From positions 186,001 to 250,000 of the forward strand of contig JANSXE010000004.1 of assembly GCA_024743195.1 (NCBI GenBank): a stretch of 64,000 bases of DNA. Direction: 5' to 3'. Shown here piece after piece: positions 4,759 through 38,249 of the stretch (the first letter of the stretch is position 1; every line of letters begins with the position of its first letter). The notes beneath the pieces are model-generated. The model did not search any database and had not been told where the DNA came from. It saw only the letters and a list, made by a program, of their open reading frames with translations. Origin of the DNA: Alphaproteobacteria bacterium. Lineage in GTDB: Bacteria; Pseudomonadota; Alphaproteobacteria; UBA8366; Aestuariispiraceae. A program made the translations under genes and the position numbers.

Positions 4759-4821
4759 CGTCCCGCTCCTCCGCGTCGCCGCGCGCGCCCTGCGGCGCAG
4801 CTTTGCGCGCCGGTCCGCCGC

Positions 4822-4850
4822 TTGACAAGCCGCGATCCTGGGCTTACCCC
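4822..4850 (+). promoter_or_regulatory. Possible promoter for legI
   Basis: A perfect TTGACA at 4822-4827 is followed, after 17 bases, by TACCCC, a poor -10 box. It lies in the 185-base gap between the divergent AKR gene and legI, about 95 bases upstream of the legI start. Only the -35 element is convincing. Confidence 0.3.
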
Positions 4851-4943
4851 AACCCGTGACCGCGCGGAGATCGACTCCGTCGCGGTGCGGTAGCCGTGGC
4901 GGCGCTCGCCGCCCGTAAACGGCGCTTTTCACGACATGGTTTG

Positions 4944-5981: not shown

Positions 5982-7117
5982 CCCGCATCCTGAGCGTCAC
6001 CTCCAGCCGCGCCGACGTCGGCATTCTGACGCCGGTCTGGCGCGCCCTCGCCGAAGCCGGCGCGGAGGTCGAGCTGTTCGCGACCGGCATGCACCAGGCC
6101 GACGACGCACTCGCCCAGGCGGACTTGCCGCCGGGGATCGCGATCCATCGCGGCGGCGCCGATCTCGGCGGGGCGGCGCCCGCCCGCGCGGCCGCGGCAA
6201 TGGGGGAGATCGAGCGCGCCGCCGGCGCCCTTTACGCCGACCGGCGCCCGGACCTCGTGCTGGCGACGGGGGACCGGCTCGACATGGTTCCGGCCGCCAT
6301 GGCGACGGTTCCCTTCAATCTTCCCCTCGCCCATCTGCATGGCGGGGAGGCGACGGAGGGCGCGGTCGACGACCGGCTGCGCCATGCGATGAGCAAGCTC
6401 GCCCATCTGCATTGCGTCTCGTCGGACGGCGCGCGGCGCCGGCTCCTCGCGCTGGGCGAGGCGGCGGAGCGCATCACGGTCACCGGCGCGCCGGGGCTCG
6501 ATACGCTGACCGCCGCGCCGGCGCTGTCGGCGGCGGATTTTGCCGACGCGGTCGGTCTGGCGGACGCGACGGGGCTGCGCCTCGTAACCGTCCACCCGGA
6601 AACCAACGCCGTCGACCCGCTCGCCGCCGCGCGCGCGGTCCTGACGGCCTTGGCCGGGACGCCGGGCCCGGCGCTCGTGACCGCGCCCAACAGCGATCCC
6701 GGCGGCGCGGCGATCCGGACGGAGATCGAGGCCTTCTGCGCCGCGGCGCCGGATCGCGTCTTTCGCGAGACACTGGGCGGACGGCTGTTCGCCAACGCCC
6801 TGCGCCATGCGGCGGTGATGGTCGGCAACTCCTCCAGCGGCGTGATCGAGGCGGGCCTGTTCGGCCTGCCCGTGATCGATGTGGGCGACCGCCAGGCGGG
6901 GCGGGAGGGCGGCGAGAACGTCCGCCGCGTCCCGGCCCAGGCGGCGGCCGTCGAGGCGGCGATCGCCGACTTCGCGGCGCGCCCCGGCCGCTTCGCCCCC
7001 GGCACGCCCTACGGCGACGGCCGCTCGGGGCCGCGCGTGGCGCGCGCGCTGCTCGACGGGCTGGCGCTGCCGGGTCTTCTCAGGAAACCGACGCCGCCGC
7101 CGGCGGCGGTCGGATAA
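5978..7117 (+). CDS. legG: Hydrolysing nucleotide-sugar 2-epimerase (NeuC/LegG type)
   Basis: A 379-residue GT-B-fold enzyme that removes the nucleotide and inverts C2 to give the free mannosamine-type precursor used by the NeuB-family synthase just upstream. The start is ILSVTSSRADVGILTPVWRAL, matching the TRADYG-type opening of NeuC. Later blocks are DLVLATGDRLDMVPAA, LPLAHLHGGEATEGAVDD and VGNSSSGVIEAG, which match the conserved nucleotide-binding segments. It starts on GTG overlapping the legI stop (GTGA). With PtmE and LegB homologues nearby, a GDP-linked substrate (LegG) is more likely than UDP-GlcNAc (NeuC); that is inference. Confidence 0.86.
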   Translation: MTRILSVTSSRADVGILTPVWRALAEAGAEVELFATGMHQADDALAQADLPPGIAIHRGGADLGGAAPARAAAAMGEIERAAGALYADRRPDLVLATGDRLDMVPAAMATVPFNLPLAHLHGGEATEGAVDDRLRHAMSKLAHLHCVSSDGARRRLLALGEAAERITVTGAPGLDTLTAAPALSAADFADAVGLADATGLRLVTVHPETNAVDPLAAARAVLTALAGTPGPALVTAPNSDPGGAAIRTEIEAFCAAAPDRVFRETLGGRLFANALRHAAVMVGNSSSGVIEAGLFGLPVIDVGDRQAGREGGENVRRVPAQAAAVEAAIADFAARPGRFAPGTPYGDGRSGPRVARALLDGLALPGLLRKPTPPPAAVG

Positions 7118-7130
7118 GGGGCCAGCAGGC

Positions 7131-8612
7131 GTGACCGACGGACAAGACGCCCTTCGGCCCAGCATCATGCTGGGCGCCCATTCGCAGTATCGCGCCGTCT
7201 ATACCGGCGTTGCGCGCCAATTGCGGCAGACGGGATGCGATGTGCATCTCTATGTCGCCTTGCCGGAGCAGGCGGGTTTCTACGAAGGCCGGGATCCGGA
7301 TCTCTACAGCCGCGTCACGATCGCGAACCGCCTCTACGAAGCCTGCGCGGAGGCGGTGGCGGACGAAGCGGCCGTGATCGCGCGCGCGAAAGAGAACGAG
7401 GCGCGCCTCGGCGCCAGCTACAACAGCATCCTGCTGACCGACCGGCATCTCGGCCGCGGCTTCGCGCTGGGCGGCTTCCGCCATCCGCGCTCGCGCATCT
7501 CGCGCGAGACGAGCTACGTTCAGGCCGTGCATGCGGTCAATGAGACCATCGCCTTTTGGGAGCGCGAAATCGACCGCACCGGCGCGCGCCTGATCCTGAA
7601 CTGCGGCAAGATCGCGGCGCTGGTCGCCCGCGCGCGCGGGATCGCCTACCGGCGGCTTTCGGCCTCGCGCTACAAGAACTACCACTATTGGGGAATTGAC
7701 GAATACTCCACCAACCCCGCGCTCGGGCCCGCCTTCGACGCGACGGAGGATGCGGAGGCCGGCGGGGTCGAGGCCCCCTATGCGACGCATCTTCAGATGC
7801 GCGGATTCTTCAAGTCGCGCCTCACCCTGCACGGCGTTCTGCGCGACATCGGGACGACCCTGGCCCGGCGGCTTTACTGGCGGCTGCGCGGCTACGAGAA
7901 GGCGAAGGGCTACCTCGTCGCCGACGAACTCGGCTATCTCTGGCGACGCTATGCGGACATGAAGGCGATCGCGCGGCGCAGCGTGACGCTGGAGCAATTG
8001 GCCGGCCGGCGCTTCATCTATTACCCGCTGCACACCGAGCCGGAGACGGCGCTGCAGACCTTCTCGCCGGAGTATTTCTTCCAGCTCAGTTCGATCGCCG
8101 CGCTGGCGCGCGACGCGCCGGCGGGCGTTCTGGTCGCGGTGAAGGAGACCGCGGCGGCGGTGGGCCGGCGCCCGCGCGACTTCTACGATCAGATCGCCGA
8201 ATTCAAGAACGTGGTCTTCATCGACCCGAACGAGTTGGGCCTGAAGGCCGCGGCGCAATGCGACGTGGTGGCGACGATCACCGGCACCGGCGGCCTGGAA
8301 GGCGCGGCGATGGGCAGGCCGGTGGTCACCTTCGGGCTGCACAACAGCTACAACTTCCTGCCCCATGTCCGCGTGATGCGCGATCCGGAGGATTTGAAGC
8401 CGGCGCTCGACTGGGCGCTGGGTCCGGCCTTCGACGCGGCTGCGGCGGACCGCGACGGGCGGCGCTTCCTGCGGGCGCTCGCGTCCGTCTCCTTCGATCT
8501 CGGCGATTTCAGCCTGCGTGCGCCGGACGCGATCGACCCCGCGGCGGTGGAGGCGGCGGTCGAGAACCTGCTCGCCGGCGCGCCCGACCTGCGGGTCTCC
8601 GAAGCGGCGTGA
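7131..8612 (+). CDS. Capsule-biosynthesis-like protein, candidate NulO glycosyltransferase
   Basis: A 493-residue protein I cannot name exactly. It starts on GTG at 7131 after AAGGGG; an ATG at 7167 is an alternative. The C-terminal part resembles the capsule polysaccharide synthesis/KDO-transferase-like fold: IYYPLHTEPETALQTFSP, then VAVKETAAAVG, and a Gly-rich loop ITGTGGLEGAAMGRPVVTFG, which in that family binds the nucleotide sugar. The N-terminal part has ILNCGKIAALVARARG. There is no signal peptide or membrane segment. It sits directly after the synthase and epimerase and before the CMP-NulO synthetase, so use of the CMP-activated sugar as donor is a reasonable but untested idea. A counterpart of different sequence (16,240) sits in the pseudaminic module. 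Confidence 0.6.
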   Translation: MTDGQDALRPSIMLGAHSQYRAVYTGVARQLRQTGCDVHLYVALPEQAGFYEGRDPDLYSRVTIANRLYEACAEAVADEAAVIARAKENEARLGASYNSILLTDRHLGRGFALGGFRHPRSRISRETSYVQAVHAVNETIAFWEREIDRTGARLILNCGKIAALVARARGIAYRRLSASRYKNYHYWGIDEYSTNPALGPAFDATEDAEAGGVEAPYATHLQMRGFFKSRLTLHGVLRDIGTTLARRLYWRLRGYEKAKGYLVADELGYLWRRYADMKAIARRSVTLEQLAGRRFIYYPLHTEPETALQTFSPEYFFQLSSIAALARDAPAGVLVAVKETAAAVGRRPRDFYDQIAEFKNVVFIDPNELGLKAAAQCDVVATITGTGGLEGAAMGRPVVTFGLHNSYNFLPHVRVMRDPEDLKPALDWALGPAFDAAAADRDGRRFLRALASVSFDLGDFSLRAPDAIDPAAVEAAVENLLAGAPDLRVSEAA

Positions 8613-8650
8613 GATCGCGCCCCGCCGGCCCGCCCAAGAGACGCTCCCTC

Positions 8651-9583
8651 ATGAAAGACGGTACAAGTATGACGGACCTCACCCCTCTCCTCATCAGCGG
8701 CGCGCCGCGCTCCGGCACCAGCCTGCTCTACAATCTGTTCGACGGGCATCCGGAGGTGACGTGGCTCGTCAATGAGGGGTACCTGTTCGAGTATCTCGCG
8801 GATCTCGGCGCCGATCGCGCGCATCTCTTCGAGGCGGCGCTGCCGGCCGATTTGGACGCGCTGATCGCCGGCCTGCGCGACAAGCAGGTCATGCCCCCGA
8901 TGCACAAGGACTACACCCAGTCGCTGGCGCGCGGCTCGGTGTCGGAGGTGCATATCGCCTCCCCCTGGTCGGAGGAGCGCTTCCGCGCCGCGCTGGCCGC
9001 GCCGCGCGACCGGGGGATGAGCGCGCTCTGGCGCTGGCTCGCCGCGGCCTACGCGGCGGGGGAGGGGCAGCCGCCGCGCCGCTACGCCGTGATGAAGTCG
9101 CCGGATTTCGGCAAATCGATCGCGTCCTCGCTCACGCTGCTTCCCGAGGCGCGGGGGCTGGTCATCCTGCGCGACCCGCTGCGGGCGCTCGACAGTCTGA
9201 AGCGCTCGCGCGAGCTGCGGGGGGAGAAGCTGGTGACGTGGCCGCAGCTCGCGCTGGCCGTCGGCAGTTTCCTGGATATGGCGGACCGGCTCGAGGCCGC
9301 CGACCCTGCGCGCCTGCTCGTGCTGCGCTACGAGGATCTGACGGCCGAGCCGGAGCAAACCATGCGCGGCGTGGCGGACCGGCTGGGGTTGGCGTACGCG
9401 CCCAGCTTGCTTGAGCCCACGATGCGGGGTCAGCACTGGCCCGGAATCTCCAGCTTCAAGCCGACGGACGGGATCGAGACCGGCCCGGCCGACCGGCCGC
9501 TGCAGGCGCTGACGCCCGAGGAGGCGGATTACGTGCGCTCGGCCCTGCACGAGTTCCGAGAGCGGCATGGCTATAGGGACTGA
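8651..9583 (+). CDS. Sulfotransferase family protein
   Basis: A 310-residue cytosolic sulfotransferase-like enzyme expected to move sulfate from PAPS to a sugar hydroxyl. The 5'-phosphosulfate loop is LISGAPRSGTSLLYNLFDGH near residues 13-32. The 3'-phosphate binding region is LVILRDPLRALDSLKRSREL at about 175-194, and LRYEDLTAEPEQTM is the usual late motif. The start is uncertain between ATG 8651 and ATG 8669. Its presence between the Leg synthesis genes suggests the nonulosonic acid or its glycan is sulfated. The PAPS-forming enzymes CysD and CysNC are encoded 27 kb downstream in the same locus, which supports this. Confidence 0.82.
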   Translation: MKDGTSMTDLTPLLISGAPRSGTSLLYNLFDGHPEVTWLVNEGYLFEYLADLGADRAHLFEAALPADLDALIAGLRDKQVMPPMHKDYTQSLARGSVSEVHIASPWSEERFRAALAAPRDRGMSALWRWLAAAYAAGEGQPPRRYAVMKSPDFGKSIASSLTLLPEARGLVILRDPLRALDSLKRSRELRGEKLVTWPQLALAVGSFLDMADRLEAADPARLLVLRYEDLTAEPEQTMRGVADRLGLAYAPSLLEPTMRGQHWPGISSFKPTDGIETGPADRPLQALTPEEADYVRSALHEFRERHGYRD

Positions 9584-9607
9584 CGGACGCGTGCGGGAGA
9601 CCCGCCG

Positions 9608-10354
9608 ATGAGCATCGGCGCGCCGGACGTCGCGGTGATCGTGCCGATGCGCGGCGGCTCGAAGCGGCTGCCGGGCAAGCACGCGCGCCTGTTGGCCGGC
9701 CGCAGCCTGCCGGCGCGCACGGCGGCCGTGCTGCAGGCGTGCGGGCTCGGCGACCGCGTCTGGCTGACGACCGACGACCCCGATCTGGCGGAGACGGGCC
9801 GGGCGCTCGGCTGGCGCGTGCCGGCGTTGCGGCCGGCGGACCTGGCGGGCGATGGGACGCCGACCTTGGATGCGGTCTTTCATGCGTTGGATGAGATGGT
9901 GACGGGCGAACCCGAAATCGTGATCGTGATGCAGACGACCTCTCCCTTCTGCCCGGCCGACGCGCCGGCGCGGGCGCTCGCGCTCTTGGCGGAGCGTCCG
10001 GCGCTCGCCAGCGTCCTCGCCGTCAAGCGGCTGCATGTCGCCGCCGCCCATGTCCGGGGCGCCCGCGCGGACGGAACGATCGCGCCGCTGCTGCCGGCCG
10101 ACGCGCCGGCCGACGCGCCGGCCGACGCGGCAGTCGGCCGCGGACCGGCCTTCACGCCGACCGGCGCGCTCTATGCGGTGCGCACGGCCGCGCTGCGTCA
10201 GGCGCGAAGCCTGACGGTCGACCCCGTCGCGCCCCTCGAGCTGGACGAGGTCGGCGCCGTCGACATCGACACGCCCGAGGATTGGGCCCGCGCGGAAGCC
10301 TTCGCGCAGGCCGGTCTGGCGGGGCGCTGTCTCGACCTTGAGGAGCCGGCATGA
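9608..10354 (+). CDS. legF: CMP-nonulosonate cytidylyltransferase (NeuA/LegF type)
   Basis: A 248-residue enzyme that activates a nonulosonic acid with CTP. The nucleotide-binding motif is VIVPMRGGSKRLPGKHARLL at about residues 11-30, a slightly divergent form of ARGGSKG-P-KN. It is followed by VWLTTDDPDLAETG, VIVMQTTSPFCPADAPARAL and the late EVGAVDIDTPEDW, all expected in the family. GGAGA precedes the ATG. A 12-base unit repeated three times gives Ala-Asp-Ala-Pro repeats within the protein at about residues 163-174. It overlaps the PtmE-like gene by 4 bases. A second, different cytidylyltransferase is fused to an aminotransferase at 18,219, so each NulO module has its own. Confidence 0.84.
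   Translation: MSIGAPDVAVIVPMRGGSKRLPGKHARLLAGRSLPARTAAVLQACGLGDRVWLTTDDPDLAETGRALGWRVPALRPADLAGDGTPTLDAVFHALDEMVTGEPEIVIVMQTTSPFCPADAPARALALLAERPALASVLAVKRLHVAAAHVRGARADGTIAPLLPADAPADAPADAAVGRGPAFTPTGALYAVRTAALRQARSLTVDPVAPLELDEVGAVDIDTPEDWARAEAFAQAGLAGRCLDLEEPA
10094..10129 (+). repeat. Three perfect 12-base tandem repeats inside legF
   Basis: The unit CCGGCCGACGCG occurs three times head to tail. It keeps the frame and encodes Ala-Asp-Ala-Pro repeats. Copy-number change would lengthen or shorten the protein by four residues without a frameshift. Confidence 0.9.
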
Positions 10355-11403
10355 TCGTCGAACGCGATGTCGCCGCCTACTGCTGCGGCCCGGACGCCAC
10401 GATTGCGGAGGTGCTGCGCCGCATCAACGCGACGGCGTTCCTGTTCCAGGTCGTCGTCGATGCGCACAACAAGCCGGTGGGCACGGTGACGGACGGCGAC
10501 ATCCGCCGCGCGCTGGTGCGCGGCGAATCGCTGGAGGCCGCGGTCGAACGCTGCATGTTCCCCCGCCCGCAGATCGCGGCCGAATCGGACATCGATCGGG
10601 CGCGCGCGAAACTCGCCGCCGCCCGCATCAGCTTCCTCCCCCTGGTCGATGGCGCCGGCAGGATCGCGGCCTTCCTGGTCGATCGCCCGCAGCGGCGCAA
10701 GATGCCCGCCGCGCTCGTCATGGCCGGAGGATTCGGCAAGCGCTTGGGCGAGCGGACGAAAGAACGGCCGAAGCCGCTTCTGGAAGTGGCCGGACGTCCG
10801 ATCCTCGACCATCTGCTCGGCAAGCTGGAGGAGGCGGGCGTCCGCGACGTCTATATCTCGGTGCACTACCGGGCCGACCAGATCCGCGCGTTCGTCGCGG
10901 CGCGCGACAATGCGGCGGCGATCGAACTGGTCGAAGAACCCGTGAAGCTTGGCACCGCCGGCGCCGTCTCGCTGGTCGGCGAGCGGAGCGAAGGGCCCCT
11001 CTTCGTGCTGAACGGCGACGTGCTGACCCGGGCCGATCTGCGCTCGATGGTGGAGTTTCACGAGGCGCACGGCCACGACCTGACCATCGCGATCGCGCGC
11101 TACGACGTCACGCTGCCCTATGGGGTGGTCCAGTTCGACGACGCCGGCGAATTCAGAAGCGTCGATGAGAAGCCGACCCTGACCTTCAACGTGTCCGCCG
11201 GAATCTATCTTCTGTCCGCCCAGGTGCGCGGCTTCGTGGAGCCGGAGATCGAGACCGACATGCCGCTCGTCATCAACCGGGCCCGTGAGATGGGTCTCAA
11301 GGTCGGCGTTTTTCCAGTCTACGAGTATTGGCGCGACATCGGCCGACCCGACGATCTGCACGCCGCCAACAACGACCATGCGGAAGACGAGGGCGGCGCA
11401 TGA
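10351..11403 (+). CDS. ptmE: CBS-domain sugar-1-phosphate guanylyltransferase (PtmE-like)
   Basis: A 350-residue protein with a CBS pair at about residues 1-120 (DGDIRRALVRGESLEAAVE is typical) followed by a nucleotidyltransferase domain. The catalytic loop is ALVMAGGFGKRLGERTKERP at about 127-146, then VAGRPILDHLL, and FVLNGDVLTRADL with the metal-binding Asp. The end EYWRDIGRPDDL is usual for mannose-1-P guanylyltransferase relatives. In Campylobacter the homologue PtmE makes the GDP-amino sugar that starts the legionaminic acid pathway. Finding it here with LegB, LegC, LegG, LegI and LegF homologues supports a GDP-linked legionaminic route. It starts on ATG overlapping legF. CBS domains suggest allosteric control by an adenine nucleotide, which is general family knowledge. 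Confidence 0.82.
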   Translation: MIVERDVAAYCCGPDATIAEVLRRINATAFLFQVVVDAHNKPVGTVTDGDIRRALVRGESLEAAVERCMFPRPQIAAESDIDRARAKLAAARISFLPLVDGAGRIAAFLVDRPQRRKMPAALVMAGGFGKRLGERTKERPKPLLEVAGRPILDHLLGKLEEAGVRDVYISVHYRADQIRAFVAARDNAAAIELVEEPVKLGTAGAVSLVGERSEGPLFVLNGDVLTRADLRSMVEFHEAHGHDLTIAIARYDVTLPYGVVQFDDAGEFRSVDEKPTLTFNVSAGIYLLSAQVRGFVEPEIETDMPLVINRAREMGLKVGVFPVYEYWRDIGRPDDLHAANNDHAEDEGGA

Positions 11404-11447
11404 GACCGGCGACGCCGTCCGTAGCCGCGCCGACGGAGGCCCGCTGA

Positions 11448-13304
11448 ATGGTCCGGAAGTTCCTGGAGCATGCGGATCTTCTGGGATTCCGGCGACGCTG
11501 GATCGCCCTGATCCTCGTGCTGCAGTTCGCCTCCGTCCTGTTCGAAGGGATCGGCATCGGCATGTTCCTGCCGATCCTCGAACTGATCACCAGCGGTCGC
11601 GAGCCGGCCGACCTGGCCGCCGACTCGGCGCTCTGGCGCCTGCTGGTCGACGCGTTCCAGGTGATCGGGCTGGAGCCCACCTTGGGGCCGCTGCTCGGGG
11701 CGGCCTTCCTCGCCTTCCTGCTGCGTCAGGCCTTCATGGCCGCGAAGCTCCTGAGCCTCAATACGGTCAAGTTCACCTTCATGCGCGACGTGCGCCGTCA
11801 GGCGTTCGGCAAGTTCCTCGCCGCCGACCTGTCCTTTCACGACCGGGTCTCGCCGGGGGAGTTCACCAACGAGCTGACGACGGAGTTGACCAACGCCACC
11901 GGGGCGTTGATCGCCTATGTGAACTATGTCGGCCAACTGACGGTGTGCGCGGTCTACGGCGTCGGGCTGTTCGTTCTGGCGCCGACCATGACCCTCGCCA
12001 CCTTCGCGATCTTCGGCGTGACGGCGCTCCTGCTCTCCGGCCTGATCCGCAAGAGCCGGGCGGCCGGCAAGCAGGTGACGGCGGCCAATCAGTCGTTGTC
12101 CAAGTTCCTGCTGGAGCGCATCCGCTCGATCCGTCTGATCCGGCTTTCGGCCATGGAGCGCGCCGAGCGGGAGGCGGTCGCCGACCTGACCGACCGCCAA
12201 TGCGACCGGCTGATCCACCTCAGCAAGATCTCCACGCTGCTCTACGTCGCGGTGGAGCCGCTGATCCTGCTCGGCGGGTTCGTCGTCTTCTATCTGTCGA
12301 TCGAGCGTCTCGGCGTGCCGACGGAGCGCGTCATGCTGCTGTTCGTCGCCATCCTGCGTCTGCTGCCGGTGGTGAAGGAGGCGATGATCCGCCGCCAGGT
12401 CTTCGTCGGCTCTTCGGCGTCGGTGCAGACGATCCACAAACGGCTTCTGGAGATGGACCGCGCGCCCGAGATCTTCTCCGCCGGCCGCGCCTTCGACGGC
12501 GTGCGCGACGCGATCCGGTTCGAGGACGTGCGCTTCGCCTTCGCCAAGAGCGGCGGCGCGCAGGCGTTGAGCGGGGTGAGCGCCGAAATCCCCGGCGGCG
12601 CGATCACCGCGATCGTCGGCCCGTCCGGCGCCGGCAAGTCGACCCTGATCGACCTGCTTCCACGGCTGCGCCAGCCGACGGCGGGTCGGGTTGCGATCGA
12701 CGGCGTTCCGATCGAGGCGTACGACCTGCGGGCCTTGCGCGACCGGATCGCCTTCGTCTCGCAGTTCGCGACCGTGCTCGACATGACGGCGGCGGAGTAC
12801 ATCGCCTACGGCGCCGGGCCCATCGGCCGCGCCGAGGTCGAGGCGGCGGCGCGCCTCGCCAACGCCGCCGATTTCATCGAGGCCTTGCCCAACGGCTATG
12901 ACGAGCCGTTGGGCGAGGCCGGCGGGCGCCTCTCCGGCGGCCAGCGCCAGCGCCTCGACCTCGCCCGGGCGCTGGCCCGCAAGGCGGCCCTGATCGTGCT
13001 CGACGAGCCGACCAGCAACCTCGACGCCGGGGCCGAGCGGGCGATCGTCTCCGCCCTGGAGCGGATCCGGCGCGAGACGGCGGCCACCATCGTCATCGTG
13101 GCGCATCGACCCTCCGCCGCCCTGGTCGCCGACCATATCCTGATCCTGCGCGACGGCGCCGTCGCCGACGCCGGCGGGCACGAGAGCCTGCTGGCGCGCG
13201 ACGCCTGGTATCGCGAGACGCTGCACGCCGTCGCACCGCACTCGGCCGCCGCCCTCGGCGCGACGTCGAGCGCCGTATCGAGCGCTGCGCCGGACGGCTC
13301 CTGA
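11448..13304 (+). CDS. ABC exporter, fused membrane and ATPase domains
   Basis: A 618-residue half-transporter of the ABC type I exporter group (MsbA/PglK-like). About residues 1-330 form the six-helix membrane domain (for example LILVLQFASVLFEGIGIGMF and a helix near YVAVEPLILLGGFVVFYL). The ATPase follows: Walker A GPSGAGKSTLIDLLP near 391-405, signature LSGGQRQRLDLARAL, Walker B ALIVLDEPTSNLDAG and the H-loop His in VIVAHRPSAALVADH. GGAGG lies upstream of the ATG. It sits exactly between the Leg and Pse modules, so it probably flips a lipid-linked glycan or exports a glycolipid built from these sugars. It could instead be the only flippase of the locus, because no Wzx is present. Confidence 0.88.
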   Translation: MVRKFLEHADLLGFRRRWIALILVLQFASVLFEGIGIGMFLPILELITSGREPADLAADSALWRLLVDAFQVIGLEPTLGPLLGAAFLAFLLRQAFMAAKLLSLNTVKFTFMRDVRRQAFGKFLAADLSFHDRVSPGEFTNELTTELTNATGALIAYVNYVGQLTVCAVYGVGLFVLAPTMTLATFAIFGVTALLLSGLIRKSRAAGKQVTAANQSLSKFLLERIRSIRLIRLSAMERAEREAVADLTDRQCDRLIHLSKISTLLYVAVEPLILLGGFVVFYLSIERLGVPTERVMLLFVAILRLLPVVKEAMIRRQVFVGSSASVQTIHKRLLEMDRAPEIFSAGRAFDGVRDAIRFEDVRFAFAKSGGAQALSGVSAEIPGGAITAIVGPSGAGKSTLIDLLPRLRQPTAGRVAIDGVPIEAYDLRALRDRIAFVSQFATVLDMTAAEYIAYGAGPIGRAEVEAAARLANAADFIEALPNGYDEPLGEAGGRLSGGQRQRLDLARALARKAALIVLDEPTSNLDAGAERAIVSALERIRRETAATIVIVAHRPSAALVADHILILRDGAVADAGGHESLLARDAWYRETLHAVAPHSAAALGATSSAVSSAAPDGS

Positions 13305-13341
13305 CCTCCGCCTTTCCCTTCGATCAGTTCACGAGATCCCA

Positions 13342-14385
13342 ATGACGATCATGCGCTCCTTTGACGGCCCGCTTCCCGATCTGGACGGGGCTCGAGTCCT
13401 GGTCACCGGCGGCACCGGCTCCTTCGGCCAGGCCTTCGTGCAGCGGGTCCTCGACCTCTACCCGACGGCTTTGGTGATCGTCTTCTCCCGGGACGAGCAG
13501 AAGCAGTACCAGATGGAGGCGCGCCTCGACCCGGCGCAGCGCGAGAGGGTTCGCTTCTTCCTCGGCGACGTGCGCGACGCGGAGCGGTTGGAGCTCGCCA
13601 TGCACAACGTGTCGACGGTCGTGCACGCTGCGGCGCAGAAGCACGTCTCGCTGGCCGAATACAATCCCTTCGAATGCATCAAGACCAACGTCCATGGGGC
13701 GGAGAACGTGGCCAACGCCGCCCGCCGCGCCGGCGTCTCGCGCGTGGTCGCGCTGTCCACCGACAAGGCGGCCAACCCGATCAACATCTACGGCGCGAGC
13801 AAGCTCGCCTCCGACAAGATCTTCATCGCGGCGAACGCGCTCTCCGGCGCGGCCGGCGCGCGCTACGCGGTGGTGCGCTACGGCAACGTGATCGGCTCGC
13901 GCGGCAGCGTGATCCCCTTCTTCAAGCGGCTGGCGGCTGCCGGCGCGGCGGAGGTTCCGATCACCGACGCGCGCATGACGCGCTTCGTCATCACCTTGGA
14001 GCAGGGCGTCGCCTTCGTCCTCTCCGCCCTGGCCGAGATGAAGGGGGGCGAGATCTTCGTGCCGAAGATTCCGAGCGTGCGCGTCGTCGATCTGGCCCGC
14101 CTCATCGCGCCCGACGCCGAGCGGAAGATCGTCGGCGTGCGGCCGGGGGAGAAGCTGCACGAAATGATGATCTCCGAAGACGACGCGCGCATGGTGACGG
14201 AGTTGGACGACCGCTACATCATCAACCCGAGCTTCAGCCCCTGGACGGCGGAGCCGGAGAAGCTGGTGCGCGGAACCCCTGTTGCGGAGGGCTTCAGCTA
14301 TCGCAGCGACGCGAACCCCGAATGGCTCGACGACGCGGCGATGCGCGGCCTGATCGAAGCCGCCCCCGTCGACCCGTCGCATTGA
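13342..14385 (+). CDS. pseB: UDP-GlcNAc 4,6-dehydratase (5-inverting), PseB
   Basis: A 347-residue extended SDR enzyme that begins pseudaminic acid synthesis by dehydrating UDP-GlcNAc and inverting C5. The NAD(P) loop is VLVTGGTGSFGQAFVQRVL near residues 20-38. It is followed by VFSRDEQKQYQM, VHAAAQKHVSLAEYNPFECI and ALSTDKAANPINIYGASKL, which holds the catalytic Asp, Lys and Tyr; these blocks are hallmarks of PseB/FlaA1. The late GVRPGEKLHEMMISEDD is also characteristic. It starts 37 bases after the ABC exporter and is followed by pseC, the normal pathway order. Confidence 0.94.
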   Translation: MTIMRSFDGPLPDLDGARVLVTGGTGSFGQAFVQRVLDLYPTALVIVFSRDEQKQYQMEARLDPAQRERVRFFLGDVRDAERLELAMHNVSTVVHAAAQKHVSLAEYNPFECIKTNVHGAENVANAARRAGVSRVVALSTDKAANPINIYGASKLASDKIFIAANALSGAAGARYAVVRYGNVIGSRGSVIPFFKRLAAAGAAEVPITDARMTRFVITLEQGVAFVLSALAEMKGGEIFVPKIPSVRVVDLARLIAPDAERKIVGVRPGEKLHEMMISEDDARMVTELDDRYIINPSFSPWTAEPEKLVRGTPVAEGFSYRSDANPEWLDDAAMRGLIEAAPVDPSH

Positions 14386-14430
14386 GCCGTCGCGAACCGC
14401 GCCCTGAGCTTCCGCTCCCGGATCCCACCG

Positions 14431-15648
14431 ATGAACAGGTCCCGACCCTTCCTGCCCTACGGCAAGCCGACGATCGAGGCGGACGACCGCGCCGCGGTCG
14501 CGGACGCGCTCGGCTCCGACATGCTGACCACGGGCCCGCGGCCGGCGGCCTTCGAGGCGGCGTTGGCGGAGCGGCTGGGCGCGCCGCACGCGGTCGTCTG
14601 CAGCAACGGCACGGCGGCGCTGCATCTGGCGGCGCTGGCGCTCGGGCTCGGCCCCGGCGACTGCGCGGTGGTCCCGAGCCTCACCTTCCTGGCGACGGCC
14701 AACTGCGTCGCCTTCACCGGCGCGCGGGTGGTTTTTGCGGACGTCGATCCGCAGACCGGTCTGATGACGCCGGAGACGGCGGCGGCGGCGGTCGCGCGCT
14801 CGGACGGGCCCGTGCGCGCCCTCTTTCCGGTGCATCTGAACGGGCAGTGCTGCGACATGGCGGGGATCGCCGCGGTCGCGCGCCGCGCCGGCGCCCGGAT
14901 CGTCGAGGACGCCTGCCATGCGATCGGCGGCGCCCAGACGGCCGACCCGGCCCGATGGCCGGGCGGCCTCGCCCCCGTCGGGGCGTGCGCCCATTCGGAC
15001 ATGGCGACCTTCAGCTTCCATCCGGTGAAGACGATCACGACGACCGAGGGCGGGGCGGTCCTGGCGCGCGACGGCGACCTGACCCGTCGCCTGCGCGATT
15101 TCCGCAATCACGGCCTGATCCGGGAGGCGGAGCGCTTCACCAACCCCGACGGCTTCGACGGCGCGGGCGCGCCCAATCCCTGGTTCTACGAGATGCAGGC
15201 GCCCGGCTACAACTACCGCCTCTCCGACGTGCAATGCGCGCTGGGGATCAGCCAACTCGCCAAGCTCGACCGCTTCGTCGCCCGGCGCGCGGCGCTGGTC
15301 GCGCGCTATCGCGAGCGGCTGGGCGCTTGCGCCCTGCCGCTCGCACCGGTTCCGGAAATCGCGACCGGCCGGCCGGCCTGGCACCTGTTCGCGGTCGCGA
15401 TCGATTTCGAGGCGGCGGGCGCAAGCCGGGCCGAGACGATGCGGGCGCTCGCCGCGCAAGGGGTCGGCTCGCAGGTGCATTACTACCCGGTCCACCGCCA
15501 GCCCTATTACCGGGCGCTCGATCCGACGCTCGACCTGCCCGGGGCGGATCGCTACTACGACCGCGCGCTGTCGCTGCCCCTGTTCCCCGCGATGACGGAT
15601 GCGGACGTCGATCGCGTCGTGGACGCGCTGGCGGAGGCGCTGGGCTGA
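14431..15648 (+). CDS. pseC: UDP-4-keto-6-deoxy-N-acetylaltrosamine aminotransferase, PseC
   Basis: A 405-residue DegT-type PLP aminotransferase that acts on the PseB product. The opening FLPYGKPTIEADDRAAVADAL matches PseC. Conserved blocks are CSNGTAALHLAALALGLG, FHPVKTITTTEGGAVL with the PLP-binding Lys near residue 198, and APGYNYRLSDVQCALGISQL. It shares only family-level similarity with the LegC-like enzyme at 2103 and the WbpE-like enzyme at 28,439, so the locus has three DegT aminotransferases for three sugars. It ends one base before the next start codon. Confidence 0.93.
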   Translation: MNRSRPFLPYGKPTIEADDRAAVADALGSDMLTTGPRPAAFEAALAERLGAPHAVVCSNGTAALHLAALALGLGPGDCAVVPSLTFLATANCVAFTGARVVFADVDPQTGLMTPETAAAAVARSDGPVRALFPVHLNGQCCDMAGIAAVARRAGARIVEDACHAIGGAQTADPARWPGGLAPVGACAHSDMATFSFHPVKTITTTEGGAVLARDGDLTRRLRDFRNHGLIREAERFTNPDGFDGAGAPNPWFYEMQAPGYNYRLSDVQCALGISQLAKLDRFVARRAALVARYRERLGACALPLAPVPEIATGRPAWHLFAVAIDFEAAGASRAETMRALAAQGVGSQVHYYPVHRQPYYRALDPTLDLPGADRYYDRALSLPLFPAMTDADVDRVVDALAEALG

Positions 15649-15649
15649 G

Positions 15650-16243
15650 ATGCGGCTGGATCGGCCCATCGAAACCCCCCGTCTGCGGCTCGAGAGCTTC
15701 GAGCCGGACCAGGTGGATGCGGGCTATCTCGGATGGCTCGACGATCCGCAGGCCACGCGCTTTACGGAAGTGCGGCCAGGGGCCTATGACGCGGCCCGCG
15801 CGCGCGCCTATGTGGCGGGCAATCTGGAGAGCCCGGACGCGCTGCTGCTGCGCATCATCGCGCCCGATGGGGCGTCGAAGGGGGCGCCGGACGGGCCGGA
15901 GGGCCCACATAATGGCCAGGAGCGCGCGATCGGCACGATGCGCCTGAGCGGCCTGGCCGGCCCGCATCGATGCGCCGACCTCGCCCTGATGATCGGGGCG
16001 GCCGGCGCGCGCGGGCGCGGTTACGGGACGGAGGCGATCCGGGGCGCGGCCGAAGCCGCCTTCGCCCGGTTCGATCTGCACAAGATCTGCGCCGGGATCT
16101 ATGCGCCGAACGAGGCCTCCCGGCGCGCTTTCGAGAAGGCGGGCTTCCACCTCGAAGCCCGCCTGGTCGAACAGGTCTTTTTCGAGAGCGCCTTCGTCGA
16201 TGTGCTGAAGATGGCGCGCTTCGCGGACGGGAGGAGGCGGTGA
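15650..16243 (+). CDS. GNAT N-acetyltransferase, RimJ/PseH-like
   Basis: A 197-residue GNAT acetyltransferase. It opens with IETPRLRLESFEPDQ, as in the RimJ/RimL and PseH subgroups, and its acetyl-CoA loop is GARGRGYGTEAIRGAAEAAF, followed by KICAGIYAPNEASRRAFEKAGF. Following pseC directly, it could be the PseH N-acetyltransferase that acetylates the 4-amine. A second GNAT domain is fused to PseG at 20,279, so one of the two is probably PseH and the other acts on a different amine. A Gly/Pro-rich insert near residues 70-85 is unusual. The start is the ATG two bases after the pseC stop, and the stop overlaps the next gene (GTGA). Confidence 0.78.
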   Translation: MRLDRPIETPRLRLESFEPDQVDAGYLGWLDDPQATRFTEVRPGAYDAARARAYVAGNLESPDALLLRIIAPDGASKGAPDGPEGPHNGQERAIGTMRLSGLAGPHRCADLALMIGAAGARGRGYGTEAIRGAAEAAFARFDLHKICAGIYAPNEASRRAFEKAGFHLEARLVEQVFFESAFVDVLKMARFADGRRR

Positions 16244-18222
16244 GCCCGCCCGCCGTGCGCCATCTGCTGGTCGAGGATTCCGACGCCTTGGCCGGGATCG
16301 CGGAGCGCTCGGAGCTCCGCCTGTGGAGCCAGTCGACGGGGCTTTCCTACAGCGAGGCGGCGCGCGGCCTGAGCGTCCGCGCGCTCGACGATCCGCGCGA
16401 CGCGCCGGCGTTCGAGGCCCTCTGGCGCGATCTGCTGGCGATACGGCTTCCGATCGCGCGCGCGCTGCGCGCCGCCGAAGATCCCGAAGGACTGACCCAT
16501 CTCGCGCAGGTCGCGGGCCATGGCCTCTATGTCGCGGCCGTCCAGATCGCGACCAAGGCGCTGATGCTTGCGCTCTGGCGCGCGCGGCTCTCCGGCGCGG
16601 AGGCGGTCGTCGCCGGCGCGCCGGCCCTGAGCCCGCCGGCGGGGCTCAATCCGGGCGTCGGGATTCACGATCATCTGTTCGCGGCGATCGCCGGGCGTCT
16701 GCCGGCGGAAGCCGGGATCGCGCTGCGGCCCTGCGCGCCGGTTCCGCCCGACCGCTTCCTGCGCAGCTTCGCGCACGTGCCGCCGCTCGACCGCCTGTTC
16801 AACAGCGTCAATCGGCCGGTCTCCTCGCTCCGCTTCAAGCTCTGGCGGCGGCGCGGTCGGCCGACGGGCTCGGGCGCCCGCGGCCGGCTGCTGATGCTGC
16901 GCGAGAACGAGCTGCTGGAGGAGGCCTTCCTGCCGCTGCGGCGCGACGGGTGGCGGATCGAGAGTTGGCCGATCCCCGACCGCCGGCCCGAGGCGGCGCC
17001 CGAGCGGGCGCCCGGCCGCCTGCCGGATGCGGCGGACCGCGCGCTTTCGCAGCTATGGACCGAGGCGGTCGGGCCGCACCTGCCGCCGACTTTCGACGCG
17101 GCGGGGGCGAGCCTGTGGCGCGAGCGTCTGGCGTGGGTTCTAGCGGAGTATCCGGCGCGGCTGGCGGGGATGCGGGAGTGGGCGGCGCGGGCCCGAGCCG
17201 GCGCGATCGAGGGGCGGCCGACGGTCGCGCTGTCGACCGGGCTCTATGCGCCGCTGCACCGGATGGCCGATGCGGCGCTGCGCGAGACGGGGACGCCGGT
17301 GGTGTGCGCGGACCATGGGACCGGCATCGGGATCCAGGCCCGGCTCGACGCGATGGCGGACGCCTATGTGGGCTTCTCCGACCTGTATCTCGCCTTCAAT
17401 CCGGCGATCGCGGGGCTGTTCGAGCGCGCCGTCGCGCCCGAGGGCGGGGCCGTCGAGGTCGTGGGCGCGCCGCGCGAGATCGCCCGCGCGCGCTTCCCCC
17501 GGCTGCAGCGCGCGGTCATGCGGCGGCGCCTCAAGCTGGCGCCGCGGGAGACCGTGCTGACCTACGTGACCGGTCTTGGCCAGAACAACCTTCTGGGCGG
17601 CGCCGGGGCCGGGCTCGACGCGGTCTATGCGGCGTTCCAGCGCGATCTGGTCGCCTGCCTGGAGGCCTTTCCCGGACGCGCCTCGGTCAAACCGTACCCG
17701 GCGCACCGCTTTCCCGATCCGGAGCAGATCTGGGCCATGCCGCTTCCCGAGGGCGTGCATCGCCAGCCCTTCGGCGAGTTCCGGCACAGCCGGTGGGCGG
17801 CGGACCTGCTCCTGCTCGACCTGACCTCCAGCACGTTGAGCTGGGCCTTGGGCTGCGGCCGGCCGGTGATCTATGTCGACAACCCGATCGATCCGATGAA
17901 CGAGGCGGCGCGGCGCGCGGCCTCGCGCGCCCTGTTCCTGATCGACCCGCGCGAGGCGGATTGGCGCCAGCGCCTGCGCGCGCTGCTGAGCCAGGACATC
18001 GCGCGCACGCGCGCCGCCTGGCGCGACAAGGCGGCCGCCCGGCGCGCTTTCTGCGCGCAGTTCGTTCTCGGCCCCAGCACGGATCCGGCCGCGACGCCGG
18101 GGGAGGCGCCAGGGGAGGCGCCAGGGGAGGCGGTGGCGGCGGCGCTGCGGCGCGACTGGTCCGCCGGGCCGCGTCGGCGCATCGGGGCTGCACGCGCCTT
18201 GGAAGGATGCTCCGACCGATGA
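16240..18222 (+). CDS. Large surface-carbohydrate protein of unknown family, candidate transferase
   Basis: A 660-residue soluble protein I do not recognise. The GTG start overlaps the GNAT stop and its own stop overlaps the next start (ATGA), so it is translated as part of the pse operon. The N-terminal half (to about 380) is Arg-rich and lacks clear motifs. The C-terminal part looks like one half of a GT-B fold: VVCADHGTGIGIQARLDAM, VEVVGAPREI, VLTYVTGLGQNN, ASVKPYPAHRFPDPEQIW and then LLLLDLTSSTLSWALGCGRP. The last piece resembles the donor-binding loop of surface carbohydrate proteins of the LIC12162/LIC13510 kind. Position suggests transfer of pseudaminic acid, by analogy with the unknown protein in the Leg module. 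Confidence 0.5.
   Translation: MSPPAVRHLLVEDSDALAGIAERSELRLWSQSTGLSYSEAARGLSVRALDDPRDAPAFEALWRDLLAIRLPIARALRAAEDPEGLTHLAQVAGHGLYVAAVQIATKALMLALWRARLSGAEAVVAGAPALSPPAGLNPGVGIHDHLFAAIAGRLPAEAGIALRPCAPVPPDRFLRSFAHVPPLDRLFNSVNRPVSSLRFKLWRRRGRPTGSGARGRLLMLRENELLEEAFLPLRRDGWRIESWPIPDRRPEAAPERAPGRLPDAADRALSQLWTEAVGPHLPPTFDAAGASLWRERLAWVLAEYPARLAGMREWAARARAGAIEGRPTVALSTGLYAPLHRMADAALRETGTPVVCADHGTGIGIQARLDAMADAYVGFSDLYLAFNPAIAGLFERAVAPEGGAVEVVGAPREIARARFPRLQRAVMRRRLKLAPRETVLTYVTGLGQNNLLGGAGAGLDAVYAAFQRDLVACLEAFPGRASVKPYPAHRFPDPEQIWAMPLPEGVHRQPFGEFRHSRWAADLLLLDLTSSTLSWALGCGRPVIYVDNPIDPMNEAARRAASRALFLIDPREADWRQRLRALLSQDIARTRAAWRDKAAARRAFCAQFVLGPSTDPAATPGEAPGEAPGEAVAAALRRDWSAGPRRRIGAARALEGCSDR
18097..18132 (+). 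repeat. Three 12-base tandem repeats near the end of the 660-residue protein gene
   Basis: Units CCGGGGGAGGCG, CCAGGGGAGGCG and CCAGGGGAGGCG encode a Pro-Gly-Glu-Ala tract about 30 residues before the stop. The first copy differs at one base. The repeat preserves the reading frame. Confidence 0.9.
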
Positions 18223-20282
18223 TCCTCGCCGCCTTCATTCAGGCCCGCATGAGCTCCACCCGTCTGCCCGGCAAGGTGCTGCGGCCGCTAGGTGGCGAGC
18301 CGGTTCTCGCCCGGGTCGTGCGCCAGGCCCGCGCGATCCCCGGGATCGACCGCGTCGCGGTCGTCACCTCGGAGGAGGCGTCGGACGACCCGATCGCCGC
18401 CTGGTGCGCGGAGGCCGGCGTCGCCTGCCGCCGCGGCGCCTTGGCGGACGTGCTGGACCGATTCCGCGCCGCGGCGGAGGCGGAGGGCTTGTCCGCCGGC
18501 GACGGGGTCATGCGGTTGACCGCGGATTGCCCGGTGCTGGACCCCATGGTGTGCGGGCTGGTCGCGCGCCTGTTTCGCGCGGGCGGCGTCGATTACGCGC
18601 ACAATGTGGGGCCGCGCAGTTGGCCGGACGGGCTCGACTGCGAGGTCTTCTCGGTCCGCGCCTTGCGCGCGGCGGCGGATGAGGCGTCGGCGCCCGGCGA
18701 TCGCGAGCATGTGGGCCCCTATATCAAGCGGAACCGGCGCCGCTTTCCGCAGGCCAACCTGACCTGCCCGATCGGCAATCACGCAGCCCATCGCTGGACC
18801 CTCGACCGGGCGGAGGATCTGGCGTTCCTGGAGCGGCTGATCGCGGCCGCTGGCGGGCGCACCGACTTTTTGTCGCTGCTGTCGGCGCTCGACGCGGATG
18901 CGGCGCTTCGGGCCCGCAGCCTCGACGCCGCGCGCTGCGCCGCGGCTCCGATCGTCGGCGACGCGCAGGCGCCCGTGGCGGAGGCGCCGGCGTCCAGCGT
19001 CGGCTACGCGGCGTCCAACGCCTTCCTGGAGCGTGCGCGGGCGGCCGTGCCGCTCGGCAGCCAGACCTTCTCCAAGAGCCACATCCAGTACCCGGCCGGC
19101 CGCGCGCCCATGTTCCTGACCCATGGCGACGGCGCCAGGGTCTGGGATCTGGACGGCAACGAGTATGTCGATCTGGTGAACGGGCTGCTGCCCGTCGTCT
19201 TGGGCTATTGCGACCCGGACGTCGACGAGGCGGTCCGCCGGCAACTCGACTGCGGCGTCTCCTTCAGCATGGCGACGACCTTGGAGGCGGAGTTGGCCGA
19301 ACGGCTGGTGCGCCTCATTCCCTGCGCCGAGCAGGTGCGCTTCGGCAAGAACGGTTCGGACGCGACCACCGGCGCCGTGCGGCTCGCCCGGGCGATGACC
19401 GGGCGGGAGCGGGTGGCGCTGTGCGGCTATCACGGCTGGCATGACTGGTACATCGGATCGACCAGCCGCAACAAAGGCGTGCCCGAGGCGATCCGCGCGC
19501 TTTCGTCGACGTTTCCCTATAACGACGCCGGCGCGTTGGAAGCGCTGCTCGAGGCGCATCCGAATGACTTCGCGGCGGTCGTGATGGAGATCGCGAATGC
19601 GACGCCGCCGGCGCCCGGCTTTCTGGAGACGGTGCGCCGCCTGACCGAGAAGCATGGCGTCGTGCTGATCTTCGACGAGATCATCACCGGGTTCCGATTC
19701 GCCCTCGGCGGGGCGCAGCAGATGGTGGGGGTGGTCCCGGACCTCGCCTGCTTCGGCAAGAGCATGGGCAACGGCTTGCCGATCTCCGCCGTCGTCGGAC
19801 GCGAGAGCCTGATGCGGGGCATGGAGGAGATCTTCTTCTCCGGCACCTTCGGCGGCGAGGCGCTGTCGCTGGCCGCGGCGATCGCGACGATTGACAAGCT
19901 GGAGCGCGAGGACGGGATCGCCCGCCTCTGGCGCACCGGAGAGGCGATCGCCAATCGGGTCGCGGCGCGGACGGAGCGGCATGGTCTGAGCGACGTTCTC
20001 TCCTTCGCCGGCTACGACCCCTGGCGGATCCTGGCGATTCAGGATCACCCGCACGCGCGCAAGGAAGCCATCCGGACCCGGCTGCTGATCGAGCTGTTGG
20101 ACCGCGGCGTGCTGGTCGGCGGCGGTCACAACATCTCCTGCGCGATGGGGGGCGAGGAGGTCGAGCGGATCGTCGCCGCCTATGACGCCGCGCTCGGCGT
20201 GCTGGCGGACGAATTGTCCCGGCCCGGCCTCGAACAGCGGCTGCCCTGCCCGGCCATCGAGCCCGTCTTCAAGGTGCGATGA
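18219..20282 (+). CDS. pseF: Fusion: CMP-pseudaminate synthetase-like domain + class III aminotransferase
   Basis: A 687-residue two-domain protein. Residues 1 to about 235 are an SpsF/PseF-type cytidylyltransferase: FIQARMSSTRLPGKVLRPLG, VAVVTSEEASDDPIAAWC, RLTADCPVLDP and then HRWTLDRAEDLAFLE. After a linker, residues about 265-687 form a class III PLP aminotransferase like glutamate-1-semialdehyde aminomutase: PLGSQTFSKSHIQYP, FGKNGSDATTGAVRLARAMT, VVMEIANATPPAPGF, FDEIITGFRFALGG, and the PLP lysine in LACFGKSMGNGLPIS. The ATG overlaps the upstream stop and the stop overlaps pseG. The first domain fits CMP activation of pseudaminic acid. The second suggests an extra transamination of a sugar or of a small acyl donor. 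I see no frameshift between the domains. Confidence 0.85.
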   Translation: MILAAFIQARMSSTRLPGKVLRPLGGEPVLARVVRQARAIPGIDRVAVVTSEEASDDPIAAWCAEAGVACRRGALADVLDRFRAAAEAEGLSAGDGVMRLTADCPVLDPMVCGLVARLFRAGGVDYAHNVGPRSWPDGLDCEVFSVRALRAAADEASAPGDREHVGPYIKRNRRRFPQANLTCPIGNHAAHRWTLDRAEDLAFLERLIAAAGGRTDFLSLLSALDADAALRARSLDAARCAAAPIVGDAQAPVAEAPASSVGYAASNAFLERARAAVPLGSQTFSKSHIQYPAGRAPMFLTHGDGARVWDLDGNEYVDLVNGLLPVVLGYCDPDVDEAVRRQLDCGVSFSMATTLEAELAERLVRLIPCAEQVRFGKNGSDATTGAVRLARAMTGRERVALCGYHGWHDWYIGSTSRNKGVPEAIRALSSTFPYNDAGALEALLEAHPNDFAAVVMEIANATPPAPGFLETVRRLTEKHGVVLIFDEIITGFRFALGGAQQMVGVVPDLACFGKSMGNGLPISAVVGRESLMRGMEEIFFSGTFGGEALSLAAAIATIDKLEREDGIARLWRTGEAIANRVAARTERHGLSDVLSFAGYDPWRILAIQDHPHARKEAIRTRLLIELLDRGVLVGGGHNISCAMGGEEVERIVAAYDAALGVLADELSRPGLEQRLPCPAIEPVFKVR

Positions 20283-38212: not shown

Positions 38213-38249
38213 TCGCACGGGCCGAGGCATGGGGAAAGGCGAAGCGGGG

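Follow-up and report, generated by a model that had tools for sequence, protein, structure and literature searches.

The 64,000-nucleotide stretch analysed here (positions 186,001 to 250,000, forward strand, of contig JANSXE010000004.1 from an alphaproteobacterium of the Aestuariispiraceae; hereafter, the window) forms a surface-polysaccharide cluster containing two gene sets for nonulosonic acids (NulOs), one of the legionaminic acid (Leg) type and one of the pseudaminic acid (Pse) type. Each set holds one large gene whose product, scored as a protein, stays below every curated cut-off of Pfam and NCBIfam, and these two products, P0001 and P0002, are candidate transferases of NulOs activated with cytidine monophosphate (CMP):

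P0001, 7131..8612, forward strand: 493 amino acids (aa), GTG start; candidate CMP-legionaminic acid (or related NulO) transferase, a divergent KpsS/KpsC-superfamily protein.
P0002, 16240..18222, forward strand: 660 aa, GTG start; candidate CMP-pseudaminic acid (or other NulO) transferase, with matches to B-type glycosyltransferase (GT-B) folds at about 214-611 and a low-complexity tail.

A preliminary description had placed two unnamed open frames of these lengths at these positions, each inside one NulO pathway, and frames, lack of a name and setting (P0001 in the Leg set, P0002 in the Pse set) were all confirmed. We favour, with some reserve, the reading that both proteins are cytoplasmic GT-B glycosyltransferases that would use CMP-NulOs to build the polysaccharide of the cluster, P0001 with Leg and P0002 with Pse. 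Taken separately, P0001 is very probably a CMP-NulO transferase and P0002 probably one; Leg or a derivative is the likely donor of P0001, and Pse is a tentative assignment for P0002, slightly more apt to fail than to hold and drawn mainly from gene order beside pseC. These gradings of function and donor are judgements, not calculations. What the data show directly is the open frames, the remote homology, the conserved motifs, the co-occurrence and the order of genes; the cytoplasmic location, the use and identity of CMP-sugar donors, the ligand roles of individual residues and a nucleophile role for E305 are deduced.

Profile comparisons place P0001 as a distant member within the KpsS/KpsC (PF05159) superfamily, whose enzymes are retaining transferases of β-3-deoxy-D-manno-oct-2-ulosonic acid (Kdo). 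As a 493-aa protein it scores 18.7 bits against PF05159 (gathering cut-off 20) and, within a longer open frame with its neighbours, 20.2 bits, just over the cut-off; no NCBIfam model matched it. Of 22 family members, 20 match PF05159 at E ≤ 0.1 (best 1e-12), and eight weakly match the BFO_1060 domain model of NCBIfam (best 6e-10). Run against all PDB sequences, the family profile returned KpsC or WbbB as the top nine of its 13 matches (KpsC at E 4e-10, WbbB at 1e-3), as an earlier profile had done for the top nine of 11 (E from 9.5e-6). In hhalign, the family aligned with 16 KpsS-like proteins at 98.8% (E 7e-17, 294 columns), its C-terminal part alone reaching 98.0% and its N-terminal part alone 24.6%. 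These 16 loci were picked by similarity. Eighteen genomes have a PF05159 match at E < 1e-30, and each locus comes from a different one of them, G226 and G239 being the two not represented. PseG and NeuC are GT-B folds themselves, and as controls against the P0001 family they gave 31.8% and 24.1%, with PseC at 2.6%, NeuB at 0.5% and a reversed profile at 1.2%. The KpsS-like proteins in turn gave 9.1% against NeuC with all 16 loci, and 38.8% with a six-locus subset picked by an Asp-requiring pattern. A GT-B fold is predicted for P0001 on the strength of this homology.

The active site, however, has changed. According to PMC12887879, β-Kdo transferases share an Asp nucleophile and a carboxylate-binding Gln in a QXXXD motif, a (K/R)XHP motif that binds CMP, two Ser residues at the phosphate and a Glu at the ribose. 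In alignments of hidden Markov models, the QXXXD of KpsC and of the KpsS-like proteins falls on HTEPE, the first of three segments of P0001:

HTEPE, 8031..8045, forward strand: P0001 codons 301-305, aligned to QXXXD, with E305 at the position of the Asp nucleophile (Asp role as given in PMC12887879).
KETA, 8142..8153, forward strand: P0001 codons 338-341, the counterpart of (K/R)XHP in the alignment, with its Lys but without its His-Pro.
ITGTGGLEGAAMGRP, 8277..8321, forward strand: P0001 codons 383-397, predicted phosphate/ribose-binding loop of the donor domain.

The KpsS-like proteins carry Q...D and K.HP in 16 of 16 cases. At the nucleophile position, Asp in all 16 of these, Glu stands in 53 of 53 P0001-family proteins; the Gln of QXXXD is kept in 17 of the 53, P0001 itself having His. 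The Lys of KXHP is kept in 51 (Arg in the other two) and its His in 34, while position 386 is Thr or Ser in 51 and position 390 is Glu in 50 and Gln in three. By analogy, K338 would hold cytosine, the G385-T386 loop would hold phosphate and E390 ribose, and E305 may replace the nucleophilic Asp of the retaining β-Kdo transferases. Membership of P0001 in GT99 or GT107 was considered and rejected: the fold family is shared but HTEPE is not QXXXD and KETA is not (K/R)XHP, and since the defining catalytic feature is lacking, P0001 is filed under neither.

The association with NulOs is seen across genomes. A set of 289 alphaproteobacterial genomes was searched with both family profiles and with NeuB, PseI, PF05159 and TIGR04331. 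A NeuB-family synthase was present in 31 of the 32 genomes with the P0001 family (E < 1e-20) against 104 of 257 others (p 1.4e-10), and in 23 of 23 with the P0002 family against 112 of 266 others (p 8e-9); the genomes are interrelated, so that these Fisher p values overstate independence and count for less in our favour than they appear to. The two groups of genomes span 23 and 17 families, respectively. Homologues occurring widely without a synthase, the outcome that the preliminary description had named as telling against NulO transferases, were not seen in this set. KpsS-like proteins served as a control and were not enriched (synthase in 10 of 18 genomes against 125 of 271; p 0.30): eight of the 18 lack a synthase, and in nine, with all TIGR03569 matches listed, none lies within 10 kb of a listed PF05159 gene; G226 was not judged. 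When the P0001 family was taken at E ≤ 1e-3, 40 of 47 genomes had a synthase, and the six misses besides G108 were partial matches of 55-152 model positions. A small sample from the phylum (65 genomes, 48 from outside the class) held one strong match beyond the class (G369) and one further strong match within it (G367), and a viral contig collection held no relatives of either family.

The same genomes bear on the donors. The preliminary description had raised the possibility that homologues occur only with legI or only with pseI, which did not survive: PseI above cut-off is found in 16 of the 32 P0001-family genomes (33 of 257 others) and in 11 of the 23 P0002-family genomes (38 of 266 others), and these counts led us to reject genome-wide Leg-only or Pse-only exclusivity for either family. 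Over all genomes PseI is enriched with either family; among those with a synthase it is not (p 0.06 for the P0001 family, 0.24 for the P0002 family), so that neither is bound to a single donor. The two families do occur together. P0001-family genes are present in 18 of the 23 P0002-family genomes against 14 of 266 others (p 4e-10 within synthase-positive genomes); in 14 of the 18 the two lie on the same contig within 30 kb, in three they are on different contigs, and in G082, where the P0002-family match is weak, they are far apart.

Neighbourhoods were compared for proteins of at least 330 aa that score at least 60 bits (P0001 family, 53 proteins) or at least 44 bits (P0002 family, 30 proteins) in the fetched stretches; one duplicate fragment of 31 was left out of the contrast, and the loci L040 and L041 were not counted. 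A synthase-family gene stands within 10 kb of at least 33 of the 53 and at least 20 of the 30 genes, lower bounds because many stretches end at contig ends. For the P0001 family the type of synthase follows the tree. In a maximum-likelihood tree of 51 of the 53 proteins (two under 420 aa were left out), a branch with 100/99 support sets apart P0001 and 19 others, of which ten rows, P0001 included, are labelled Leg, none Pse-only, two ambiguous and eight unlabelled; the Leg label was given to rows with a NeuB-type synthase or NeuC no more than 10 kb away and, to the detriment of the Leg assignment, does not separate Leg from N-acetylneuraminic acid. All ten Pse-only rows fall outside this 20-row clade. 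For the 23 Leg or Pse rows, 4 changes suffice on the tree, whereas shuffled labels need 7.7 on average (3 of 500 shuffles as low); over all four labels clustering is weak, with 24 changes against 27.4 (16 of 200 as low). The earlier proposal of CMP-Leg for P0001 therefore keeps its footing in this NeuB/NeuC-linked clade and loses it as a statement about the family, which is not LegI-specific. The order aminotransferase-neuB-neuC-P0001-sulfotransferase is repeated in locus L141 (G031). That locus also holds two P0001-family paralogues (10805-12412 and 16632-18167), 4.2 kb apart on opposite strands, by one neuB-neuC pair.

P0002 appears to represent a second family, GT-B-like by its model and marked by a KP(Y/H)P motif. 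Against Pfam and NCBIfam nothing exceeded a curated cut-off; the only match, a 31-aa fragment to DUF6732, was dismissed for its length. The LIC12162 family (TIGR04331, cut-off 225 bits) was also set aside, since P0002 does not match it at E ≤ 1 and no match exists in the source genome; among relatives it is weakly matched by two of 12 members at E ≤ 0.1 and by two of ten shorter ones (best 2.5e-5). Three segments are conserved:

His-Gly, 17314..17319, forward strand: P0002 codons 359-360; His is invariant over the 31 rows, and Gly is present in 30.
KPYP, 17689..17700, forward strand: P0002 codons 484-487; among the 30 rows reaching the motif, 18 have Tyr and 12 have His at position 486.
DLTSSTLSWALGCGRP, 17818..17865, forward strand: P0002 codons 527-542.

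The 31 rows of this motif check include one duplicate fragment. Position 484 is Lys in 28 of 30 and Arg in two; S531 and P542 are at least 90% conserved over 12 relatives, and in the wider 31-row set position 531 is Ser in 25, Thr in three and a gap in three. The Gly-rich C-terminal stretches that had been pointed out in both proteins (383-397 in P0001, 527-542 in P0002) thus lie in conserved family columns, beyond what chance would give. We propose that P0002 would work through an analogous donor domain (KPYP and the SST loop) together with the conserved His-Gly of its N-terminal half. In an AlphaFold2 model built from a three-row alignment, only parts of 437-605 exceed a predicted local distance difference test (pLDDT) of 50, with stretches at 70-90, and residues 1-436 stay under 50. 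In its confident stretches, the C-terminal region matches donor domains of GT-B enzymes, including TagF (Z 11.5) and, at Z 10.3, the CMP-Kdo domain of WaaA; further matches are uridine diphosphate (UDP)-GlcNAc 2-epimerases and antibiotic glycosyltransferases (GTs). KpsC and WbbB are not among the structural matches listed, which does not count against a relation. Short GEAP repeats were noted in the P0002 tail (residues 621-631, window 18100-18132), absent from 28 aligned relatives.

The two proteins had been described as unrelated at the N terminus, each with a Gly-rich C-terminal stretch; at the level of profiles they share a remote similarity. BLASTP found no similarity between P0001 and P0002, whereas hhalign of the family alignments (44 of 53 P0001-family and 29 of 30 P0002-family proteins; motifs were rechecked on all) gave 82.8% (E 9e-6), confined to the C-terminal donor domain, where KET aligns with KPYP and the SST loop is the partner of the TGTGG loop. 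The P0002 family reached 91.0% with the C-terminal half of the P0001 family and 31.2% with the N-terminal half, reversed controls giving 0.2%. Smaller alignments gave only 1.3%, so the link depends on the larger alignments, to which shorter relatives contribute. Other comparisons with the P0002 family gave 24.9% for PseG, 3.9% for NeuC and 4.9-17.3% for KpsS-like proteins. PseG and NeuC, both GT-B, reach 94.7% with each other, and such values therefore indicate remote fold kinship, not a common donor.

Several observations weigh against the reading of both proteins as CMP-NulO transferases. One P0001-family genome, G108, has no synthase that could be found. Leg belongs among the sugars with an equatorial C5 group. 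The Discussion of PMC12887879 holds that retaining Kdo-like enzymes may not readily switch to ulosonic acids of that kind. P0001 itself has neither the Asp and Gln of QXXXD nor the His-Pro of KXHP, and a mutant of the equivalent His in KrkA had no detectable activity, as reported in the same paper. The single-sequence AlphaFold2 model of P0001 (pLDDT 36, predicted template modelling score 0.22) yields no usable fold; of the earlier GT-B/KpsS-like proposal, what stands is the KpsS-like kinship of P0001 by profiles and the GT-B donor domain of P0002, with nothing added by the P0001 model. For P0002 the mean pLDDT is 42.8, the Foldseek list is headed by antibiotic GTs and WaaG, and 442 of the 998 aligned chains score at least Z 8, so that the match identifies the GT-B class, not one family. 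Among PDB sequences, no CMP-sugar enzyme was matched by P0002 or its profiles.

The alternative that survives best, which we hold to be rather unlikely, is that both are NulO transferases whose donors do not divide one-to-one: the donor might be Pse or some other NulO for P0001 and Leg or some other NulO for P0002, or both might draw on one donor in different linkages. Either synthase type is indeed found beside members of both families: P0001-family members adjoin a PseI-type synthase in G242 and G003, and P0002-family members lie near NeuB-type synthases in G010, G268, G238 and G305. PseI within 10 kb does not separate the families (8 of 30 P0002-family against 10 of 53 P0001-family genes; p 0.42), nor does NeuB/NeuC (5 of 30 against 13 of 53; p 0.58), and PseI above cut-off is missing from 12 of the 23 P0002-family genomes. 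The nearest P0002 relative, at L040 in a Hwanghaeella sp. assembly (33-34% identical), keeps much of the downstream gene order of the window, by reading, and has a synthase of unclear type with no pseB or pseC within about 10 kb. Set against this are the clustering of Leg and Pse labels on the P0001 tree, with no Pse-only row in P0001's clade, and the enrichment of P0002 relatives beside pseC, which lies within 3 kb of 13 of 30 P0002-family genes against 3 of 53 P0001-family genes (p 6e-5). Of the earlier proposal of CMP-Pse for P0002, the gene order beside pseC remains in support; PseI stands no nearer than to the P0001 family, and L040 speaks against it.

About as unlikely is that P0002 is a GT-B enzyme for another donor, such as a TagF-like polyol-phosphate transferase or a nucleoside diphosphate-sugar enzyme, acting on the same polysaccharide. 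Its best structural matches are TagF, UDP-GlcNAc 2-epimerases and GT-Bs for thymidine diphosphate- or UDP-sugars, Tyr takes the place of the CMP-binding His, and the CMP-sugar enzymes of the PDB go unmatched by sequence. Yet a NeuB-family synthase is present in all 23 P0002-family genomes, and relatives with His at position 486, and so with (K/R)XHP, are found close to pseI: L132 abuts pseG 0.4 kb from pseI, and L129 and L103 lie 0.7 and 1.5 kb from it. No polyol-phosphate pathway was recognised among the cluster genes read, which was not a systematic search.

That P0001 is a capsule-linker-type Kdo transferase, in a NulO cluster by chance, is improbable: its homology to KpsS/KpsC and WbbB is clear, but it is the sole PF05159 match found in its genome, so that no kpsC/kpsS pair was detected, its family tracks NeuB-family genes as KpsS-like proteins do not, and the published catalytic Asp is absent in 53 of 53 members. 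Equally improbable is that a Maf-like protein transfers the NulOs while P0001 and P0002 add other sugars, since the one PF01973 protein of the genome lies on another contig in a flagellar setting of its own, beside a third NeuB-family gene and a gene that by eye is flagellin-like.

The transferase reading of P0001 and P0002 has to be placed among known systems. With KpsS/KpsC and WbbB (PF05159; GT99, GT107) the P0001 family shares a homologous donor domain, a weaker co-linear match of the N-terminal half, and the conserved KXHP Lys, phosphate loop and ribose Glu; it differs in having Glu for the nucleophile Asp and in its link to NulO synthases. KpsS1 (GT118), the Acinetobacter baumannii Pse transferase cited in PMC12887879 (Walklett 2024), is likewise a KpsC/KpsS relative using a CMP-nonulosonic acid; it is reported there as 30% identical to Escherichia coli KpsS, whereas P0001 is only a profile-level relative, the two being set apart by description. 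In Tannerella forsythia, GtfS (Tanf_01245) and TFUB4_00887 are knock-out-supported transferases of Pse and a Leg derivative, respectively, lying within NulO gene clusters and with a reported HP motif; at about 445 aa, according to PMC6388019 and PMC6120980, they are shorter than the 493-aa P0001, again compared by description. The BFO_1060 model that eight P0001-family members weakly match might describe GtfS, which is a guess. Because these enzymes exist, a KpsS-like NulO transferase is a known kind. Maf flagellin transferases (PF01973) also transfer NulO, as stated in PMC11339370, and form a separate family, PF01973 matching neither P0001 nor P0002. The LIC12162 family is weakly related to the wider family of P0002, although P0002 itself is unmatched. 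In locus L177 of G264, a LIC12162-like gene (7539-10222; 184 bits, cut-off 225) lies directly 3' of a strong PseI gene; LIC12162 'transferases' may transfer NulOs and be remotely akin to the P0002 family. As far as the literature search reached, two things are new: a NulO-linked family in which Glu occupies the nucleophile position, and another, co-clustering family whose donor motif reads KP(Y/H)P.

A speculative history, on the unlikely side as a whole, would make the P0001 family a branch of retaining Kdo transferases that moved to NulOs, Leg included, with Asp becoming an invariant Glu and both the Gln that binds carboxylate and the His that binds phosphate relaxed, and that was paired with the P0002 family for glycans of two NulOs. 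In a limited literature search, Leg and Pse transferases outside Maf appear few. A Kdo-like family with a replaced nucleophile beside Leg-type genes makes the equatorial-C5 argument of PMC12887879 directly testable, and the clade of P0001 would be a test case. As markers, both families could help to predict surface glycans with NulOs in Alphaproteobacteria; they might also serve as tools for enzymatic synthesis.

The P0001 gene lies between NeuC/LegG and a pair formed by a cytidylyltransferase and a protein with CBS and nucleotidyltransferase domains, which we take to be PtmE-like, and the P0002 gene between PseC with a GNAT gene and the SpsF-like, PseG and PseI genes. The features of the Leg set and its surroundings are as follows:

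2103..3269, forward strand: LegC-family aminotransferase, Leg set (best match, sub-threshold: 359 bits, cut-off 420).
3281..3868, forward strand: NeuD/PglB-type sugar acetyltransferase, Leg set (sub-threshold: 120 bits, cut-off 160.8).
4929..5981, forward strand: NeuB/LegI-type synthase, Leg set (TIGR03569 369 bits, cut-off 400; PseI model 236).
5978..7117, forward strand: NeuC/LegG hydrolysing 2-epimerase, Leg set (275 bits, passing the cut-off of 236).
8639..9583, forward strand: sulfotransferase (PF13469), also 3' of the P0001 homologue in L141.
9608..10354, forward strand: cytidylyltransferase (PF02348), probable CMP-NulO synthetase.
10351..11403, forward strand: CBS and nucleotidyltransferase domain matches, Leg set.
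38229..39266, forward strand: LegB-type 4,6-dehydratase, Leg set (sub-threshold: TIGR04180 420 bits, cut-off 475).

Those of the Pse set and around P0002 are:

13342..14385, forward strand: PseB, Pse set (480 bits, above cut-off).
14431..15648, forward strand: PseC, Pse set (440 bits, above cut-off).
15650..16243, forward strand: GNAT acetyltransferase, 5' of P0002 and overlapping its start.
18234..20282, forward strand: fused gene 3' of P0002, SpsF-like at the N terminus (by eye) and with a class III aminotransferase part.
20279..21760, forward strand: PseG (above cut-off) carrying a fused GNAT domain with weak similarity to PseH.
23316..24377, forward strand: PseI pseudaminic acid synthase (472 bits, above cut-off).

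An aldo/keto-reductase-like frame (by eye; 3865-4932, reverse strand) lies on the opposite strand within the Leg set, and the 844-aa protein encoded at 39306-41840, in which a hydrolase-like part comes after a membrane part resembling O-antigen ligases (by eye), has no NCBIfam match at E ≤ 1e-5. CysD/CysNC-like sulfate-activation genes (by eye; 35385-38212) are found in the same cluster as the sulfotransferase at 8639-9583; with this sulfotransferase directly after P0001, the NulO-bearing glycan may be sulfated. The third NeuB-family synthase is on another contig (C3, locus L176:4887-13893, reverse strand), beside a 658-aa protein of PF01973, a model listed as MptE-like that we take to cover Maf. 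This locus also holds asparagine-synthase-like, amidotransferase-like and flagellin-like genes (all by eye). With the Maf-like protein, the third synthase and the flagellin-like gene together on that contig, L176 is probably a separate flagellar NulO system, so that flagellin glycosylation would have its own machinery. In L040 (2174-4356), the SpsF-like and class III aminotransferase parts that are fused in the window at 18234-20282 look like two genes.

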